This document shows, in pieces, positions 29,696-53,538 of a stretch of 64,000 nt of DNA. The position numbers were made by a program, and so were the translations under genes. The notes under the pieces are model-generated. The model saw only the letters and a program-made list of their open reading frames with translations, ran no database searches and was not told the DNA's origin. Position 1 is the first letter of the stretch; each line of letters opens with the position of its first letter. Where the stretch lies: the NCBI RefSeq assembly GCF_900101995.1, contig NZ_FNAS01000002.1, positions 62,001-126,000 on the forward strand. Reading direction: 5' to 3'. This stretch comes from Riemerella columbipharyngis. GTDB taxonomy: Bacteria > Bacteroidota > Bacteroidia > Flavobacteriales > Weeksellaceae.

Positions 29696-30320
<625 letters not shown>

Positions 30321-30324
30321 AACA

Positions 30325-31437
<1,113 letters not shown>

Positions 31438-31448
31438 TATTCCTATCC

Positions 31449-31481
31449 AAAGGCTGCCCTGCAAAAGGCAGTCTTTGTTTT
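31449..31481 (+). terminator. Terminator after the reductase pseudogenes
   Basis: AAAGGCTGCC (31449-31458) pairs with GGCAGTCTTT (31467-31476) with one G-U pair, then GTTTTT. It was probably carried in with the reductase genes. Confidence 0.65.
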
Positions 31482-31691
31482 TGGGTAAAAGGCAAAAAAA
31501 ACCGCTAAAATTGCTTGTCAAAAACTTAGGCTTATCCCCTTCCCTTTTTCGCCATACCCCCCATATAATTCAACGATTAAAAAAAGCGTACGGGCAGCTC
31601 AAATCCGGCTTCATGCAGTAATTAAGTGCGGAAATAGGATATTTAATTCAGATTTTTGTATGAAATTCAAGTTAAGTTTTTGCTCCAATAA
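31482..31691. other. Right end of the foreign segment
   Basis: No gene recognised. The first part keeps the G/C-richer composition of the pseudogenes up to about 31620 and then returns to AT-rich sequence, so the foreign segment ends around there. No inverted-repeat end equal to the left IS was found. Confidence 0.4.
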
Positions 31692-31724
31692 TTTGGTACA
31701 TATAGTAGATATAGGGTATATTTG
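31692..31724 (+). promoter_or_regulatory. Promoter of the DUF262 nuclease gene
   Basis: TTTG (31692-31695), 21-base spacer and TATATTTG (31717-31724). It leaves a leader of about 32 bases to ATG 31763. Confidence 0.55.
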
Positions 31725-31762
31725 AAAGTTACTTAACAACACTCTTGATAATATTAAACAAT

Positions 31763-33808
31763 ATGAAAACCAATGAGCCCAAAATTTTAGAATTATTATC
31801 AAATAATGATGTAACGTTTTTTATTCCCCCTTACCAAAGAAATTATGAATGGGAAACAGATATCTGTGAGATATTTTACAAAGACATTGAGAAAGTAGCT
31901 TACAATAGTGGTAGTCAGCACTTTTTTGGAACGGTTATCTATTATGCGGAAAGTACAATTTTAGGACAGCCCGATAAATATATTCTGGTTGACGGACAGC
32001 AAAGACTGACCACTACAATGCTATTCTTAATAGCAGCTCGTGACTGTATATCAGATGAGAATTTAAGAAACTATATTGATTCCAAGTACCTTAAAAATAA
32101 CAATGTCAGTGGCGATGTTGAATATAAAATCAAATTAAAACAAGTTGAATCCGACTGGCAAGCCTATAAAAATATCATATTGAACGAGCCTTTAAATGAA
32201 AAGGATAAAAAATCTGCTGTATTTAGAAACTACCAATTTTTTAAATTTAAATTAGCTAATCTAAGTGAAGGCGATATTCGTCATTTGATTGAGAAAGGTT
32301 TGACTAATTTTAATATCGTAACCATTCAGTTAGAACCCGAAAGAAATGCTTGGGAGAAACCTCAAGAAATTTTTGAGAGCATGAACTCGCTTGGGAAGCC
32401 CTTATCTTTAGCGGATTTGGTAAGAAATTACCTATTGCTTGGCAAGTCTTCTGAAGAGCAAGATAATTTATACCGCCGCTATTGGTTGAAAATAGAAGAA
32501 AACTTGTCGGGTGATAATGATGCCTTTTCAGTTTCGGCTTTTATTCGTGATTATATGCAGCTTGAGGATGCCACCAGCTATAAAAAAGCCACTGATACTA
32601 ATCACAAAGAACTCTATCGTAATTTCAAGAGCTTATTTGAAGGTGAAAATTACGAACAACTGATAAGAAAATTAGCTGAACATTCCTATCTTTATGCTGT
32701 TTTAGCCGGCTATCAATCAAGTGGAAACCTTAAAATTGATCAAAAAATTGCTGATTTAAAACTGGTTGAAGCATCGGGATTTTATTCTTTCATTTTAGGT
32801 GTATTACACTTAAGAAAAGGAACACAATTAAATGATAGTGATACGCTTGCTATTTTAGAGGCGATTTTTATTTACGTTGCCCGTAGAAGGATTTTGAGGC
32901 TTACACAAGGGGAGAATAAAAATGCCCCTTTATTGGTAAAATACTTTGATAACTTGATTACTGCTACAGATAAGAAAGAAAAAATGTTGTCGCTGTTATC
33001 CAACCAGCAATACGCCTTAAGATTACCAAACGATAACGATGTGATGAATTATTTATCAAGTAAAGAATCCAATTTCTACAACTTGAGAAGCGGTAAATTT
33101 TTGTTTAGTTTGATAGAAGAAAAACTCACAAAAAGCCGTCCGATTTTGAATGAAAAAGATCTGCAAGTAGAACACATTATGCCACAAAAACTCAACAGTA
33201 CTTGGAAAAATGAATTGGGCGAAAAGTATGAGGAAATCCATAATAATTATTTGCACCATATCGGCAACTTAACTTTAATTCGCCACAATCAAGAACTGGG
33301 CAACAAACCTTTTGCTGATAAAAAAGCGATTTACGAAAATAATGCAGGTATGCAGATAGCTAAAGATAAAATCGTTACCGAACAAAGCTGGGGTGAAACG
33401 CAAATAAAAACCAGAGCCGAATATTTGATAAGGCTATTGACCGAAAAGATATTACCAATAAGTGATAAATTTAAAACAAACAACAATTATTCAAATGAAA
33501 AAAGAGGGAGAGGTCGTAAGCTTTCTTTTTTAAAATTAGGATTGATAGGTAAAACGATTGTCTATTTTGATGACGAAAATATTGTGGCAGAAGTTATTGG
33601 GGATAAAAAATTAAAATTTGAGGGAACCGATTGGAAACTATCACCTCTTACCTGTGAAATTGAGACCAGAAAAAACCGAAGAAATCGCTCCGGTGCTTAT
33701 TGGGGCATCAATAAATGGATATATCAGGGGAAAACGCTTGAAGACTGGATTGACGAAATGAAAGATGATGAAGCCGGCGATAATGATAATGAGGTGGAAT
33801 ACTTTTAG
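31763..33808 (+). CDS. GmrSD-type DUF262 + DUF1524 nuclease with RAMA-like C-terminus
   Basis: About 681 residues; the ATG at 31763 is preferred to a TTG six codons earlier. N-terminal DUF262: IPPYQRNYEW (21-30) and the nucleotide-site motif DGQQRLTT (77-84). C-terminal DUF1524 HNH nuclease: VEHIMPQ (H471), HHIGNLTL (H499, N502) and NKPF...K. These are the halves of type IV GmrS/GmrD enzymes that cut phage DNA with modified bases. The last part (about 590-670: FDDENIVAEVIGD, SGAYWGINKWIYQGKTLEDW) resembles RAMA or DUF4357 domains that read DNA modification. The gene stands alone in accessory DNA with composition like the host. Role in phage defence is probable by family. Confidence 0.85.
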   Translation: MKTNEPKILELLSNNDVTFFIPPYQRNYEWETDICEIFYKDIEKVAYNSGSQHFFGTVIYYAESTILGQPDKYILVDGQQRLTTTMLFLIAARDCISDENLRNYIDSKYLKNNNVSGDVEYKIKLKQVESDWQAYKNIILNEPLNEKDKKSAVFRNYQFFKFKLANLSEGDIRHLIEKGLTNFNIVTIQLEPERNAWEKPQEIFESMNSLGKPLSLADLVRNYLLLGKSSEEQDNLYRRYWLKIEENLSGDNDAFSVSAFIRDYMQLEDATSYKKATDTNHKELYRNFKSLFEGENYEQLIRKLAEHSYLYAVLAGYQSSGNLKIDQKIADLKLVEASGFYSFILGVLHLRKGTQLNDSDTLAILEAIFIYVARRRILRLTQGENKNAPLLVKYFDNLITATDKKEKMLSLLSNQQYALRLPNDNDVMNYLSSKESNFYNLRSGKFLFSLIEEKLTKSRPILNEKDLQVEHIMPQKLNSTWKNELGEKYEEIHNNYLHHIGNLTLIRHNQELGNKPFADKKAIYENNAGMQIAKDKIVTEQSWGETQIKTRAEYLIRLLTEKILPISDKFKTNNNYSNEKRGRGRKLSFLKLGLIGKTIVYFDDENIVAEVIGDKKLKFEGTDWKLSPLTCEIETRKNRRNRSGAYWGINKWIYQGKTLEDWIDEMKDDEAGDNDNEVEYF

Positions 33809-34177
33809 AAAAGGAAGTGAAATAAACACACCTTATAATATCTATGTAAAAGATAATAATCATCTACTGTTTTAAAAGGTAAAACACTAATCAGAAAAAG
33901 GGATTTCTCTATAATCTAGGTACATTACACACTTTTCTTTCGAGGGCTTCTTTTCTGCGAAATCGGATCCGTACCGCTTAAAAATCCCTTTTTTACCCCA
34001 GCCATCTGATTAGATTTATCCATATTTTCAAGTATGTATTTGCTAAAAGAAGGATTACCCTAATATTTAGCATCTTAACTTACTTTTTACGAGTTGTCTA
34101 AAAAAGAGAATTACAAAAATCCCTCTATATGCTTATTGCAAGGAGGGACAAAAAATGCTTGATTTGTTTTTGACTCT
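33809..34177. other. Intergenic region with a 100-base inverted-ended segment
   Basis: No gene. AAAAAGGGATTT near 33896 and AAAATCCCTTTTT near 33983 form an inverted pair enclosing about 80 bases; this could be a small MITE, a structured RNA or a relic. Further on TCCCTC and GAGGGA around 34120-34147 make another hairpin. Confidence 0.4.
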
Positions 34178-34195
34178 TTGGAACAATTGTTGCAA
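34178..34195 (+). promoter_or_regulatory. Sigma-54-like promoter before the coiled-coil gene
   Basis: TTGGAACAATTGTTGCAA has GG and GC exactly 10 bases apart and TTGCA at -12; only the C of TGGCAC is altered. Expected start near 34205, 28 bases before ATG 34233. It lies inside the longer upstream frame, which is therefore unlikely to be translated. Confidence 0.5.
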
Positions 34196-34232
34196 GAGAA
34201 AGAGTAAAACAATTTTAATAAATTCTGAAATT

Positions 34233-34599: not shown

Positions 34600-35271
34600 T
34601 TGAAAAGAGAAATAAGAACTACTGCCGATGGCTCTAAAACCCTTTTTATAAACGAGCTGAATGAAGGCTATCACTCACACCATGGTGCTTTGCAGGAAGC
34701 AAAACATGTTTTTATAAAAAATGGCCTTGCACGCATAGAAAAAATTGAGTTTAATATTTTGGAATTAGGATTTGGCACGGGGCTGAATGTTTTGGTAACT
34801 GCCGAAGCTCTAATGGCGACAAATATTTCCAAAATAAACTATTACACCATAGAAAAATATCCAGTTACCTCTGACGAAATCCAAAATATGGGTTTTGAAC
34901 ATTTATTTGAAAATACTAAGATGGCATCTATCTATGAAAAAATTCATAGTTGTGAATGGGAGACGCTCTGCAGTATTATGCCAAAACTTAGCCTAAAAAA
35001 AATAAAATCCGATTTTCATAATCTTGAAAATATAGAGCTTCCAACGATAGATTTAGTTTATTTTGATTGTTTTGGGGCAAGAGTTCAGCCAGACTTGTGG
35101 GAATTACCTCTGGTGAAAATGGTTTCAGATAAAATGACAACAGGAAGTTTACTCAGCACCTACTCCTCTAAGGGAAGTTTTCAGCGTGTACTAAAGTCAC
35201 TTAATTTTAATTTAGAAAAATTAGAAGGTCCGAAGGGGAAACGAGAAATGATCAACGCTTGGAAAACATAA
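34600..35271 (+). CDS. mnmD: tRNA-modifying methyltransferase MnmD
   Basis: The 223-residue protein is the methyltransferase half of MnmC, which makes the final mnm5 group on uridine 34. It has LELGFGTGLNVLV (SAM binding), EGYHSHHGALQEAKHVFI and the DLVYFDCFGARVQPDLWE motif. A TTG is used as start; it fits the family N-terminus KREIRTTADGSKTL. The oxidase half MnmC2 is absent, as usual for the short MnmD form. Confidence 0.85.
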   Translation: MKREIRTTADGSKTLFINELNEGYHSHHGALQEAKHVFIKNGLARIEKIEFNILELGFGTGLNVLVTAEALMATNISKINYYTIEKYPVTSDEIQNMGFEHLFENTKMASIYEKIHSCEWETLCSIMPKLSLKKIKSDFHNLENIELPTIDLVYFDCFGARVQPDLWELPLVKMVSDKMTTGSLLSTYSSKGSFQRVLKSLNFNLEKLEGPKGKREMINAWKT

Positions 35272-35310
35272 TAAAAGTTTTGAGAAAATTTCTCAAAACT
35301 TTTATTTTTT
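35271..35310. terminator. Terminator between mnmD and porV
   Basis: ATAAAAGTTTTGAGAAA (35271-35287) and TTTCTCAAAACTTTTAT (35289-35305) form a long stem followed by T residues; it serves both convergent genes. Confidence 0.8.
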
Positions 35311-35324
35311 ATGACTAAAAATTT

Positions 35325-36458
35325 TTAGTTCTGTGTATTTGAAGTTTCTCCACCTATGTTCCAAGTAAGCCCGAAACGAAGCGTATTATCCAATGCACTA
35401 TTTTGTTTAGATGTATTGATTAAGTAGGAAACATCTAATCCAAAGGATTGGTAATTAAACCCTACCCCTAAAGTAGCGTATTGTCTTGCACCTTGCAATT
35501 CATTTTCTGCAAAATACCCTGTTCTTACCGCAAAAGCATTATCATAAGAATACTCTAATGCCCCGCTGAACATCCAGCTTTTAGGGTTACTGAAAGATTT
35601 TCCTACTCCTTCCATTACCCCTACATTTGGAATAGAATATGTTCCGTCTTCATTCTCTTCTGCTCCTGGTACTAATAATTTAGAAGCCTCTACACTTAGC
35701 CCTACTTTATTGGTATCGTCTAAAAATAAATCATATCCGGCTCCTAACCTCAATGTTGTAGGCAGATAAGAACGAGAATCATCGTTCCCCGTATAATCCA
35801 ATTTCGGACCTAAATTTTGTACCGCAAAACCGGCTTTGGCTTGGCCTTCATAGTTTCCGAAGCTTTCGCCTCTGTCGGATTGAAAATATCCGGATACATC
35901 TACGGCAAAAGAATTTGCAGGTTTTAGATTACTATTGGAATTAAAATTTCCAAAGTCTGAACGAATGTATCGTCCCGTAACCGCCATTGAGTAATTATCC
36001 GATAATTTCAATCCATAGGATAAATCTATAGAGAACTCATTTGGGTGGACAGTCCCCTCTTGAACAATTTGAGTTCCCGATATAGAGTTTAGTTCCACCT
36101 GTCCCATATTGAAATAATAAACACTTGCTCCGATAGTAGATCTTTCAGAATCTCCTAAAAAAGTATAATAAGAACCGTAGAGCAAGAATACATCACTTAC
36201 CAATTTACTCAAGTACGGCATATAGTTTACTCCCACAGCCGAAGAATTTCTACTAAATGGATATTTAGCAGCATTCCAATACTGAGAATAAACATCCGGT
36301 GAAGTAGCCACCCCTTGGTCTCCCAAACCTCCTGCTCTGGCATCTGGTGAGATCCTAAGAAAAGGAGCTCCTGTAAGTACCTGACCTTTCTGCTGTGCCA
36401 ACGCTAAGCCTGAAAGCCCCATACCCAAGCTCAAAATAAGTTTTTTCGTTAGTTTCAT
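35325..36458 (-). CDS. porV: Type IX secretion outer-membrane protein PorV (LptO)
   Basis: The 377-residue beta-barrel protein has a signal peptide ending LALAQQ, then the PorV sequence VLTGAPFLRISPDARAGGLGDQGVATSPDVYSQYWNAAKYPF and an aromatic-rich barrel. PorV is the shuttle that brings cargo from the translocon to the PorU sortase at the cell surface. Its gene follows porU by 19 bases, as in other Bacteroidetes. No LPS-O-deacylase partner is implied by the sequence. Confidence 0.93.
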   Translation of the reverse strand: MKLTKKLILSLGMGLSGLALAQQKGQVLTGAPFLRISPDARAGGLGDQGVATSPDVYSQYWNAAKYPFSRNSSAVGVNYMPYLSKLVSDVFLLYGSYYTFLGDSERSTIGASVYYFNMGQVELNSISGTQIVQEGTVHPNEFSIDLSYGLKLSDNYSMAVTGRYIRSDFGNFNSNSNLKPANSFAVDVSGYFQSDRGESFGNYEGQAKAGFAVQNLGPKLDYTGNDDSRSYLPTTLRLGAGYDLFLDDTNKVGLSVEASKLLVPGAEENEDGTYSIPNVGVMEGVGKSFSNPKSWMFSGALEYSYDNAFAVRTGYFAENELQGARQYATLGVGFNYQSFGLDVSYLINTSKQNSALDNTLRFGLTWNIGGETSNTQN

Positions 36459-51769: not shown

Positions 51770-53281
51770 CTAATGAAAAAAATGTCTCATTCCGCTAAAA
51801 ACCATTGGTATCTTATGCTCGTTTGCTGCCTGTACGCTGTCTTCATCTCTCATGCTTCCACCAGGCTGGATGATGGCTTTAATTCCCTCTTTGGCACAAG
51901 TGTCTACTACATCTCTGAATGGGAAAAATGCATCTGATGCTAATACCAATTCACCACCGAATTTTTCTTTGGCGCGTTCTATTGCCTGCTGTGTAGCCCA
52001 GATACGATTAACTTGTCCTCCGCCTATGCCTAAGGCTTGTTGTCCGTTACTTACGACAATGGCATTGGATTTCACATATTTCACTACACGCTGTGAAAAC
52101 AATAAGGCGTTCATCTGAGCTTCGGTTGGCTGGACTTCCGTTACTACTTTTATGTTGTTAGAAAACTGATTATCTGCATTCTGCACGAGCATTCCACCGT
52201 CTATCTTTACCCAAACTTGTTTATCGGATACCGCGTTTTTAATTTTAATGATTCTCAAATTTTTCTTTTTGGATAATACTTCTAATGCCTCCGGACTAAA
52301 ATCAGGTGCCATTACGATTTCCAAGAATGTTTTATTGAGTTCCTCCGCAGTGGATTTGTCCATTTTGTAATTCATTGCAACGATACCTCCGAAAATAGAT
52401 ACAGGATCGCACTCAAAAGTTTTTTGATAAGTCTCCAGAGGGGTGTTTCCTATCGCTACGCCGCAAGGTGTGGAATGTTTAACAGCACAGCAAGCCATTT
52501 CCTCCTTAAATTCATTTACCACTTTCCAACAAAGATCCATATCCCTTAAATTATTGAAGGATAATTCTTTGCCACCCAATTGCTCAAAATCCTTCATCGC
52601 ACCGTTTTCTGTATTAGAAACATAATATGCTGCCGACTGGTGCGGGTTTTCTCCATATCTGAGGTCAGAGACTTTTCTGTAAGATGAGTTGAGATACTTT
52701 GGATATTCCTCGTCCAAAAGCATTTGGGAAATAGCAGCATCATAAGCCGAAGTCAGGTTAAATACTTTTCCGGCGAAGCGTTTTCGGGTTTCGGAAGTGG
52801 TATTTCCTTGTTCCGAAATTTCCTGCATTACTTTTTCGTAATCTTCTACATCTGTGACTACGGTAACGGAAGCAAAATTTTTGGCAGCCGAACGAAGCAT
52901 AGAAGGCCCACCGATATCTATAAATTCAATTTTTTCTTCTAAAGGAATGTCTTTACCCACATTCTCAAAAAAAGGATAAAGATTAACCACCACCATATCA
53001 ATAAGTTCTATATTATGGTTTTTTACGGTGCTCATATGTTCATCATTATCTCTAAGAGCCAGAAGACCACCGTGTACTTTCGGGTGTAATGTCTTCACTC
53101 TTCCGTCCAGCATTTCGGGAAATTCGGTCACTTCATCAATGGGAATAGGTGACAGCCCCGCGTCTTTGAGGTGCTTGAAAGTTCCTCCGGTAGAGATGAG
53201 CTGGTAGTTTTGTTGGGCTAAAAATGTTGCAAATTCTGTAAGTCTCGTTTTGTCGGAAACTGAAATAAGTGCTCTTTTCAT
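51770..53281 (-). CDS. purH: Bifunctional AICAR formyltransferase / IMP cyclohydrolase PurH
   Basis: The 503-residue protein from MKRALISVSDKTRLTEFA makes the last two steps to IMP. ISTGGTFKHL, FPEMLDGRVKTLHPKVHGGLLA, GGPSMLRSAAKN and the formyltransferase CAVKHSTPCGVA (lysine-histidine) are intact. The usual family start is chosen; the frame continues upstream without a stop for 78 codons through a DUF1810-like remnant. Confidence 0.95.
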   Translation of the reverse strand: MKRALISVSDKTRLTEFATFLAQQNYQLISTGGTFKHLKDAGLSPIPIDEVTEFPEMLDGRVKTLHPKVHGGLLALRDNDEHMSTVKNHNIELIDMVVVNLYPFFENVGKDIPLEEKIEFIDIGGPSMLRSAAKNFASVTVVTDVEDYEKVMQEISEQGNTTSETRKRFAGKVFNLTSAYDAAISQMLLDEEYPKYLNSSYRKVSDLRYGENPHQSAAYYVSNTENGAMKDFEQLGGKELSFNNLRDMDLCWKVVNEFKEEMACCAVKHSTPCGVAIGNTPLETYQKTFECDPVSIFGGIVAMNYKMDKSTAEELNKTFLEIVMAPDFSPEALEVLSKKKNLRIIKIKNAVSDKQVWVKIDGGMLVQNADNQFSNNIKVVTEVQPTEAQMNALLFSQRVVKYVKSNAIVVSNGQQALGIGGGQVNRIWATQQAIERAKEKFGGELVLASDAFFPFRDVVDTCAKEGIKAIIQPGGSMRDEDSVQAANEHKIPMVFSGMRHFFH

Positions 53282-53296
53282 TTTACAATTATTATA

Positions 53297-53497
53297 TTTG
53301 AGTATATTTAATGTTTTTTCATCTTTTTCTCCATCAAAAAATTCATCCAAAACTTGCCCAAATAAATTGTTTTGTCCCAAATCAGCTATTGAAAAAAGCG
53401 TCATCGAAGACTTTAGTTTCATAAAATCAGGGTAGCCAAAAATTTCATCAGTATTATTATGGTTAAGGCTAAGTAATGCATTGGAAATTTCTTTCAA
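53297..53497 (-). pseudogene. C-terminal remnant of a DUF1810 protein, in frame with purH
   Basis: Reading into purH, LKEISNALLSLNHNNTDEIF, GYPDFMKLKSSMTLFSIADL and FFDGEKDEKTLNIL match the last 65 or so residues of DUF1810 proteins. The N-terminal half is absent, cut off at the gcvT terminator. Four codons (KYNNCK region) join it to purH with no stop. It could make a longer fused PurH only if a start existed upstream; the first possible one, a GTG at 53515, lies in the terminator stem, so translation is doubtful. Confidence 0.7.
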
Positions 53498-53506
53498 TGG
53501 TAAAAT

Positions 53507-53538
53507 AAAAAACACCCGATTGGATTTCGAGTGCTTTT
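53507..53538 (-). terminator. Terminator after gcvT
   Basis: AAAACACCCGA (left) pairs with TCGAGTGCTTTT (53527-53538) with one bulge and one G-U pair; the minus strand continues with TTTTTATTTTA. Confidence 0.65.

Follow-up and report, generated by a model that had tools for sequence, protein, structure and literature searches.

The 64,000-nucleotide stretch of Riemerella columbipharyngis DNA analysed here (the window) carries a gene for a GmrSD-type nuclease that continues beyond its second catalytic domain, and the question that it raises is what such a protein does and what the additional C-terminal residues contribute. An initial annotation had described a one-gene defence system in which a RAMA-like tail may choose modified phage DNA. 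The protein combines two catalytic domains, invariant motifs, and a recognisable core fold with a portable tail that is likely RAMA-like, and we consider it probable that it is a single-gene, NTP-dependent GmrSD-family DNA nuclease that restricts invading DNA.

The gene occupies positions 31763 to 33808 of the forward strand (681 aa), and its 681-codon frame runs from the ATG at 31763 to a stop codon ending at 33808 with no internal stop, as had been annotated. Domain assignment was performed using Pfam. GmrSD_N (DUF262) was matched at residues 8-225 (31784 to 32437, forward strand; PF03235, E 9.3e-33) and GmrSD_C (DUF1524, HNH nuclease) at residues 430-557 (33050 to 33433, forward strand; PF07510, E 4.5e-22), both in one chain and both exceeding the curated cut-offs. 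Between them lies a middle region, residues 226-429 (32438 to 33049, forward strand), which is predicted to be mostly helical from the secondary structure of the model and from conservation. An alignment of 23 rows was constructed from the window protein and 22 sequences from public contigs. The DGQQR motif (residues 77-81; 31991 to 32005, forward strand) was invariant in 23 of 23, as were E205, N208, N502, N509, and, in the EHIMP motif (residues 470-474; 33170 to 33184, forward strand), E470, H471, and P474. The longer motifs listed earlier, DGQQRLTT (residues 77-84), VEHIMPQ (469-475), and HHIGNL (498-503), were present, and the numbering of H471 was correct. The core was also matched by the PADLOC models Orf5, HEC-06, and SspE. 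A full-chain structure model built on the 23-row alignment had a mean pLDDT of 82, with values mostly of 80-97 to residue 570; its top solved match was DndI (Z 20.5, 509 residues, rmsd 7.8), followed by SspE (Z 18.4) and BrxU (Z 11.2). The rmsd values, which reached 19 angstroms, suggest that domain placement differs between the model and the solved structures. Since both Pfam domains, the invariant motifs, and the core fold agree, the assignment to the GmrSD family is firm.

The remainder of the window was then considered. It holds 81 ORFs of at least 100 aa, many of them overlapping, and 32 of these besides the gene were scanned using Pfam or NCBIfam (part of them only to E 1e-8). Two gave no match at the threshold applied, and none of the 32 belonged to a restriction or defence family, in keeping with the description of the gene as solitary. 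The identified flanking genes are mostly housekeeping or secretion genes, and the island mentioned initially was not supported. Downstream lie genes for a small coiled-coil-like protein (sll1863 stress family), mnmC2, and porV. Upstream, a GC-richer stretch (0.41-0.44) contains a pair of neighbouring aldo/keto reductase genes (29700-31437), both with disrupted reading frames; among the 20 plasmid records listed of the 62 matching this stretch, the best E-value belonged to a Hymenobacter aldo/keto reductase. An insertion sequence scar, also claimed initially, was not recovered: the flanks (31438-31762 and 33809-34200) are single-copy in the genome and have no plasmid match, a 45-aa remnant ORF had no plasmid match, and the broken reductase genes were found instead. 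No tRNA or known RNA element was detected in the window.

The decay of these neighbours would fit a nuclease gene that is itself an inactive or decaying passenger. That reading is highly improbable, given that the frame of the nuclease gene is uninterrupted and its tested catalytic residues are intact; in addition, comparison of residues 1-565 with a full-length relative from another family within the same phylum (L052, 71% identity) gave a dN of 0.18 with a saturated dS of about 3, and these residues thus appear to be under purifying selection. The locus was also compared with those of congeners. The genes mnmC2 and porV are adjacent here (34600-36458) and lie apart in all five congeners searched, which implies a rearrangement point close to the gene. 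No clean empty site was obtained from this comparison, both because of that separation and because the surroundings of mnmC2 in the congeners contained no recognised gene of this stretch apart from mnmC2 itself and one for thiamin pyrophosphokinase. Three further features of the window may be recorded. Between mnmC2 and porV (35270-35306) there is a perfect inverted repeat with arms of 18 bases separated by a single base, perhaps a shared terminator. In a PurH-like ORF (51770-53515) that contains MGS and AICARFT domains, residues 7-72 additionally match DUF1810; this may be either an atypical N-terminal extension or an artefact of the reading frame. A phage-lysozyme family gene (833-1312) is located near the left end, in an AT-rich first 2 kb.

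The last 116 residues of the protein (566-681) gave no Pfam match at E up to 10, PF18755 (RAMA) included, and none to the PF14267 (DUF4357) model, and the genome of the organism likewise held no match to either of these two models. NCBIfam made no assignment for the tail, and searching PDB sequences with a profile of the tail returned no credible match. Despite the missing Pfam match, the tail is a distinct, portable domain, since it is common to three full-length relatives and to separate T5orf172 proteins. The C-terminal domain noticed initially is therefore upheld, at about residues 589-664 (33527 to 33754, forward strand), and is common to the PADLOC candidate PDC-S57. Four tail-bearing GmrSD proteins were found: the window protein, L052, L042 (from a Lachnospiraceae MAG, 53% identity, ending early in the tail), and L077 (on an IMG/VR contig, 46% identity). 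Within the genus, the closest GmrSD protein has 35% identity and lacks the tail, and none of 39 loci of the same order (L003-L041) was matched by the tail in a single-sequence search (E up to 1, ORFs of at least 150 aa). Tail identity to L052 was 72% (75% in the HNH domain) and to L042 53% (60%), whereas the tail of L077 is less conserved (33% versus 52% in the HNH domain).

The same tail forms the C-terminal half of proteins with a T5orf172 N-terminal half, which constitute PDC-S57; the model of this candidate matched P0002 (E 1e-13, C-terminal half only) and L050 (E 2.6e-71). T5orf172 is a GIY-YIG-related family, and the PLSDB annotation of the L050 T5orf172 protein is GIY-YIG. A 380-aa protein (L073:1486-2625) has the same tail and otherwise no Pfam match at E up to 10. 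Tail-bearing proteins are uncommon: carriers were found in 3 of 395 sampled genomes of the phylum, the genome under study included, using the single sequence, and in 8 of 395 using a profile, to which three of those eight had supplied rows. Searches of phage records with the tail gave matches of E 0.5 or weaker, and a scan with P0001 confirmed no phage-borne copies. Among viral contigs, one of the 80 loci kept of 215 confirmed, L077, carries a relative at 46%.

Whether the tail is RAMA-like was addressed by fold comparison, profile comparison, and context. The tail was modelled alone from four sequences, with a mean pLDDT of 57, a pTM of 0.45, and 38 of 116 residues at 70-90; in the full-length model, its pLDDT is mostly below 50. 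RAMA folds ranked highest in both fold searches. Foldseek returned 64 PDB matches, of which the RAMA domains of MPND and CcrM held ranks 1, 2, 3, and 5, with a best E-value of 0.07; none of the E-values is significant and the tail model is of low confidence. VIA-align, run over 224 chains, placed CcrM at the top (Z 6.8, 80 residues, 3.1 angstroms), two MPND entries at ranks 2 and 3 (Z 5.7 and 5.6), and an unrelated chain at rank 4 (Z 4.5), where a Z below 8 may reflect a common arrangement. Identity between the tail and the CcrM and MPND RAMA domains in the fold alignments was 11-23%. The ranking is persuasive because its top places are filled by the family that had been named before the search.

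Profile comparison was performed using hhalign. An 11-row tail alignment scored 25.1 (probability 17%) against a pooled set of 11 sequences (10 of DUF4357 type and one RAMA), and the maximum for 100 column-shuffled decoys was 18.0. DUF4357 was rejected as the direct parent family, as the score against eight DUF4357 sequences alone, 18.1, was attained by 1 of 100 decoys and had a probability of 2%. A plain tail HMM matched only L077 (ORFs of at least 300 aa, 80 viral-contig loci) and missed the GmrSD proteins with DUF4357 or RAMA domains. As to context, other GmrSD proteins carry at the same position either DUF4357 (L051, L100, L107) or RAMA (L119, E 2.4e-16). One protein from another genome matched the DUF4357 and RAMA models at one site, with RAMA under its cut-off, and L107 and L119 also matched both. 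Since three proteins match both models, the two families look related.

On the fold ranking, the profile comparison, and the context together, the tail is likely RAMA-like; this element of the initial annotation is supported by the fold rankings, though by no Pfam match or significant E-value. The competing view, which is independent of the other alternatives weighed here, is that the domain is another small beta domain and its fold match accidental. The low-confidence model, the non-significant E-values, the lack of a Pfam match, and the hhalign probabilities would all accommodate it; we nevertheless judge it unlikely, given that the family topping both rankings had been named beforehand, that the tail occupies the DUF4357/RAMA position of other GmrSD proteins, and that it is fused to T5orf172, as is DUF4357 (PMC4619093).

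Taking the tail as RAMA-like, the following mechanism is proposed. The DUF262 domain would bind and hydrolyse NTP and thereby license the DUF1524 HNH domain, which would then cut or nick DNA. Connected by a flexible linker some 30 residues long, the RAMA-like domain would dock onto the DNA backbone and bias the enzyme to particular DNA, in the simplest case DNA with a modification that the host lacks. The net role in the cell would be restriction of invading DNA; that the protein uses NTP, cuts DNA, defends against phages, and prefers any modification is proposed in this sense. According to PMC9963953, DNA binding by the MPND RAMA domain requires S113, S115, and W135. Two of these residues have plausible counterparts in the tail, matched by eye and not by superposition: S627, a position occupied by S or T in all 11 aligned rows, and W652, occupied by W or F in all 11. 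For S115, no clear counterpart was seen in the tail alignment.

Modification reading by RAMA domains is disputed. PMC9963953 describes the RAMA domains of MPND and CcrM as touching the DNA backbone and making no specific base contacts, with no significant gain in MPND binding from 6mA, whereas a previous pull-down experiment that it cites pointed to a 6mA preference. PMC11037411 records GIY-YIG-RAMA and RAMA-Mrr-NTPase fusions and proposes RAMA fusion endonucleases as candidates to be tested for 6mA reading. Furthermore, BrxU, whose solved chain of about 580 residues has no such tail, prefers modified cytosines, glucosylated cytosine included, according to PMC12409352. Both the backbone-only contacts and the BrxU preference would suit an arrangement in which modification is sensed by the DUF262/HNH core, as it is in BrxU, and the tail serves as a sequence-neutral clamp that raises affinity. 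The diversity of GmrSD tails (DUF5655 in 4 of 23, DUF4268 in 2 of 23, DUF4357 in 2 of 23) suggests a specificity role instead, as does the pull-down result. A clamp of this kind is possible, although we lean against it; it overlaps with the favoured explanation, and the odds given to the two do not sum to one. We therefore regard the tail as a module that docks the nuclease onto DNA and may also contribute specificity, and its choosing modified phage DNA, as first put forward, would be an extension of that role.

The initial annotation had also pointed to the lack of a nearby methylase as consistent with type IV action. A search with PF02384 gave nine rows in the genome (seven open frames). 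Two of these are strong matches (E 3e-68 and 7e-60), and some of the others are weak. All nine lie outside the window, the nearest being about 51 kb before the gene. Judged by PF02384, the statement is accurate for the window, but strong matches exist elsewhere in the genome. A search of the genome for dndC was negative at E 0.001, and 14 control genomes also had none over the model cut-off. The R-M context of the tail was surveyed at 12 carrier loci using six R-M query proteins on the fetched stretch; L179, the second G446 copy, was left out because its 95-aa ORF is below the 120-aa limit. An adenine-methylase gene lay within the fetched stretch for 5 of 12 carriers (L049, L054, L077, L050, L052). 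In L049, L054, and L077, the carrier gene belongs to a type I R-M gene run: the L077 GmrSD gene directly follows it, and in L049 (1802-6895, on a Phocaeicola plasmid) and L054 (5976-11068, in a genome of the same class) the tail-bearing T5orf172 protein is encoded between hsdR and hsdM. The distance was 4.2 kb in L050 and 3.5 kb, to a type ISP methylase gene, in L052. Two carriers (L178, L181) had only an HsdR-like match, and five (L042, L180, L182, L183, and the window) had neither, a class that may include misses. At L042 (5092-7974), three ORFs precede the GmrSD gene; the first of them matches the PADLOC model cll and the third a RES domain, and the group is possibly another defence operon.

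Two of the four tail-bearing GmrSD proteins (L052, L077) are accordingly in or near adenine-methylase R-M loci and two are not; because of this, and because of the PF02384 matches in the genome, readings other than type IV action also have to be considered. R-M and defence genes are known to cluster in general, so that the proximity of the tail to R-M genes is a lead and not proof. The core type itself allows for either polarity: according to PMC11662687, a DNA mark controls DndI and SspE with opposite effects, and a mark could therefore be attacked or spared. It is conceivable in this light that the tail recognises adenine methylation of the host and thereby holds the nuclease back, with unmarked DNA being attacked, much as DndI is restrained by phosphorothioate. 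The ranking of DndI and then SspE as closest solved cores, the R-M positions of L077, L052, L049, and L054, and the strong PF02384 matches in the host genome are in its favour. However, 5 of 12 carriers, the window and L042 among them, had no R-M match to the six queries in the fetched stretch, a solitary movable gene dependent on a distant methylase should be toxic upon transfer, and BrxU and Eco94GmrSD are type IV enzymes, and we regard such a guard as decidedly unlikely. That the tail is a true 6mA reader of either polarity is also rather unlikely. If foreign 6mA were hunted, the protein would represent a GmrSD branch that targets adenine and not cytosine marks; if host 6mA were a self tag, it would read adenine methylation in the way that DndI and SspE read phosphorothioate.

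Restriction of invading DNA remains the favoured role. The protein was also compared with known systems. No description of this tail on a GmrSD protein was found in the open-licence PMC literature, supplements aside, and no paper on PDC-S57 was found in that literature. The type IV enzymes Eco94GmrSD and BrxU likewise have DUF262 and DUF1524 in one chain, with DGQQR and EHxxP motifs, and BrxU shares the core fold; the window protein differs from them in its extra RAMA-like C-terminal domain. DndI and SspE, which are phosphorothioate-sensing DUF262-DUF1524 nickases with the closest solved core structures, have YQR and DGQQR motifs in common with the window protein, but the window gene has an extra tail, and neither an adjoining modification operon nor a genomic dndC match was found. 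GmrSD proteins with DUF4357 or RAMA tails (L051, L100, L107, L119) have the same three-part architecture, from which the window protein differs in a divergent tail, unmatched in Pfam, whose sequence places it with PDC-S57. DUF4357, DUF4268, and DNA_binding_1 were reported in 2015 as extra domains of GmrSD homologues (Machnicka, PMC4619093), and the novelty here is the uncommon, divergent tail on an otherwise familiar type of enzyme. CcrM and MPND supply the best fold matches of the tail and have different partner domains. PDC-S57 has the same C-terminal domain, joined to a T5orf172 N-terminal half where the window protein has GmrSD. One tail is therefore found on two unrelated nucleases, sometimes within type I R-M loci, and swapping it between them would provide a clean test of what it reads.
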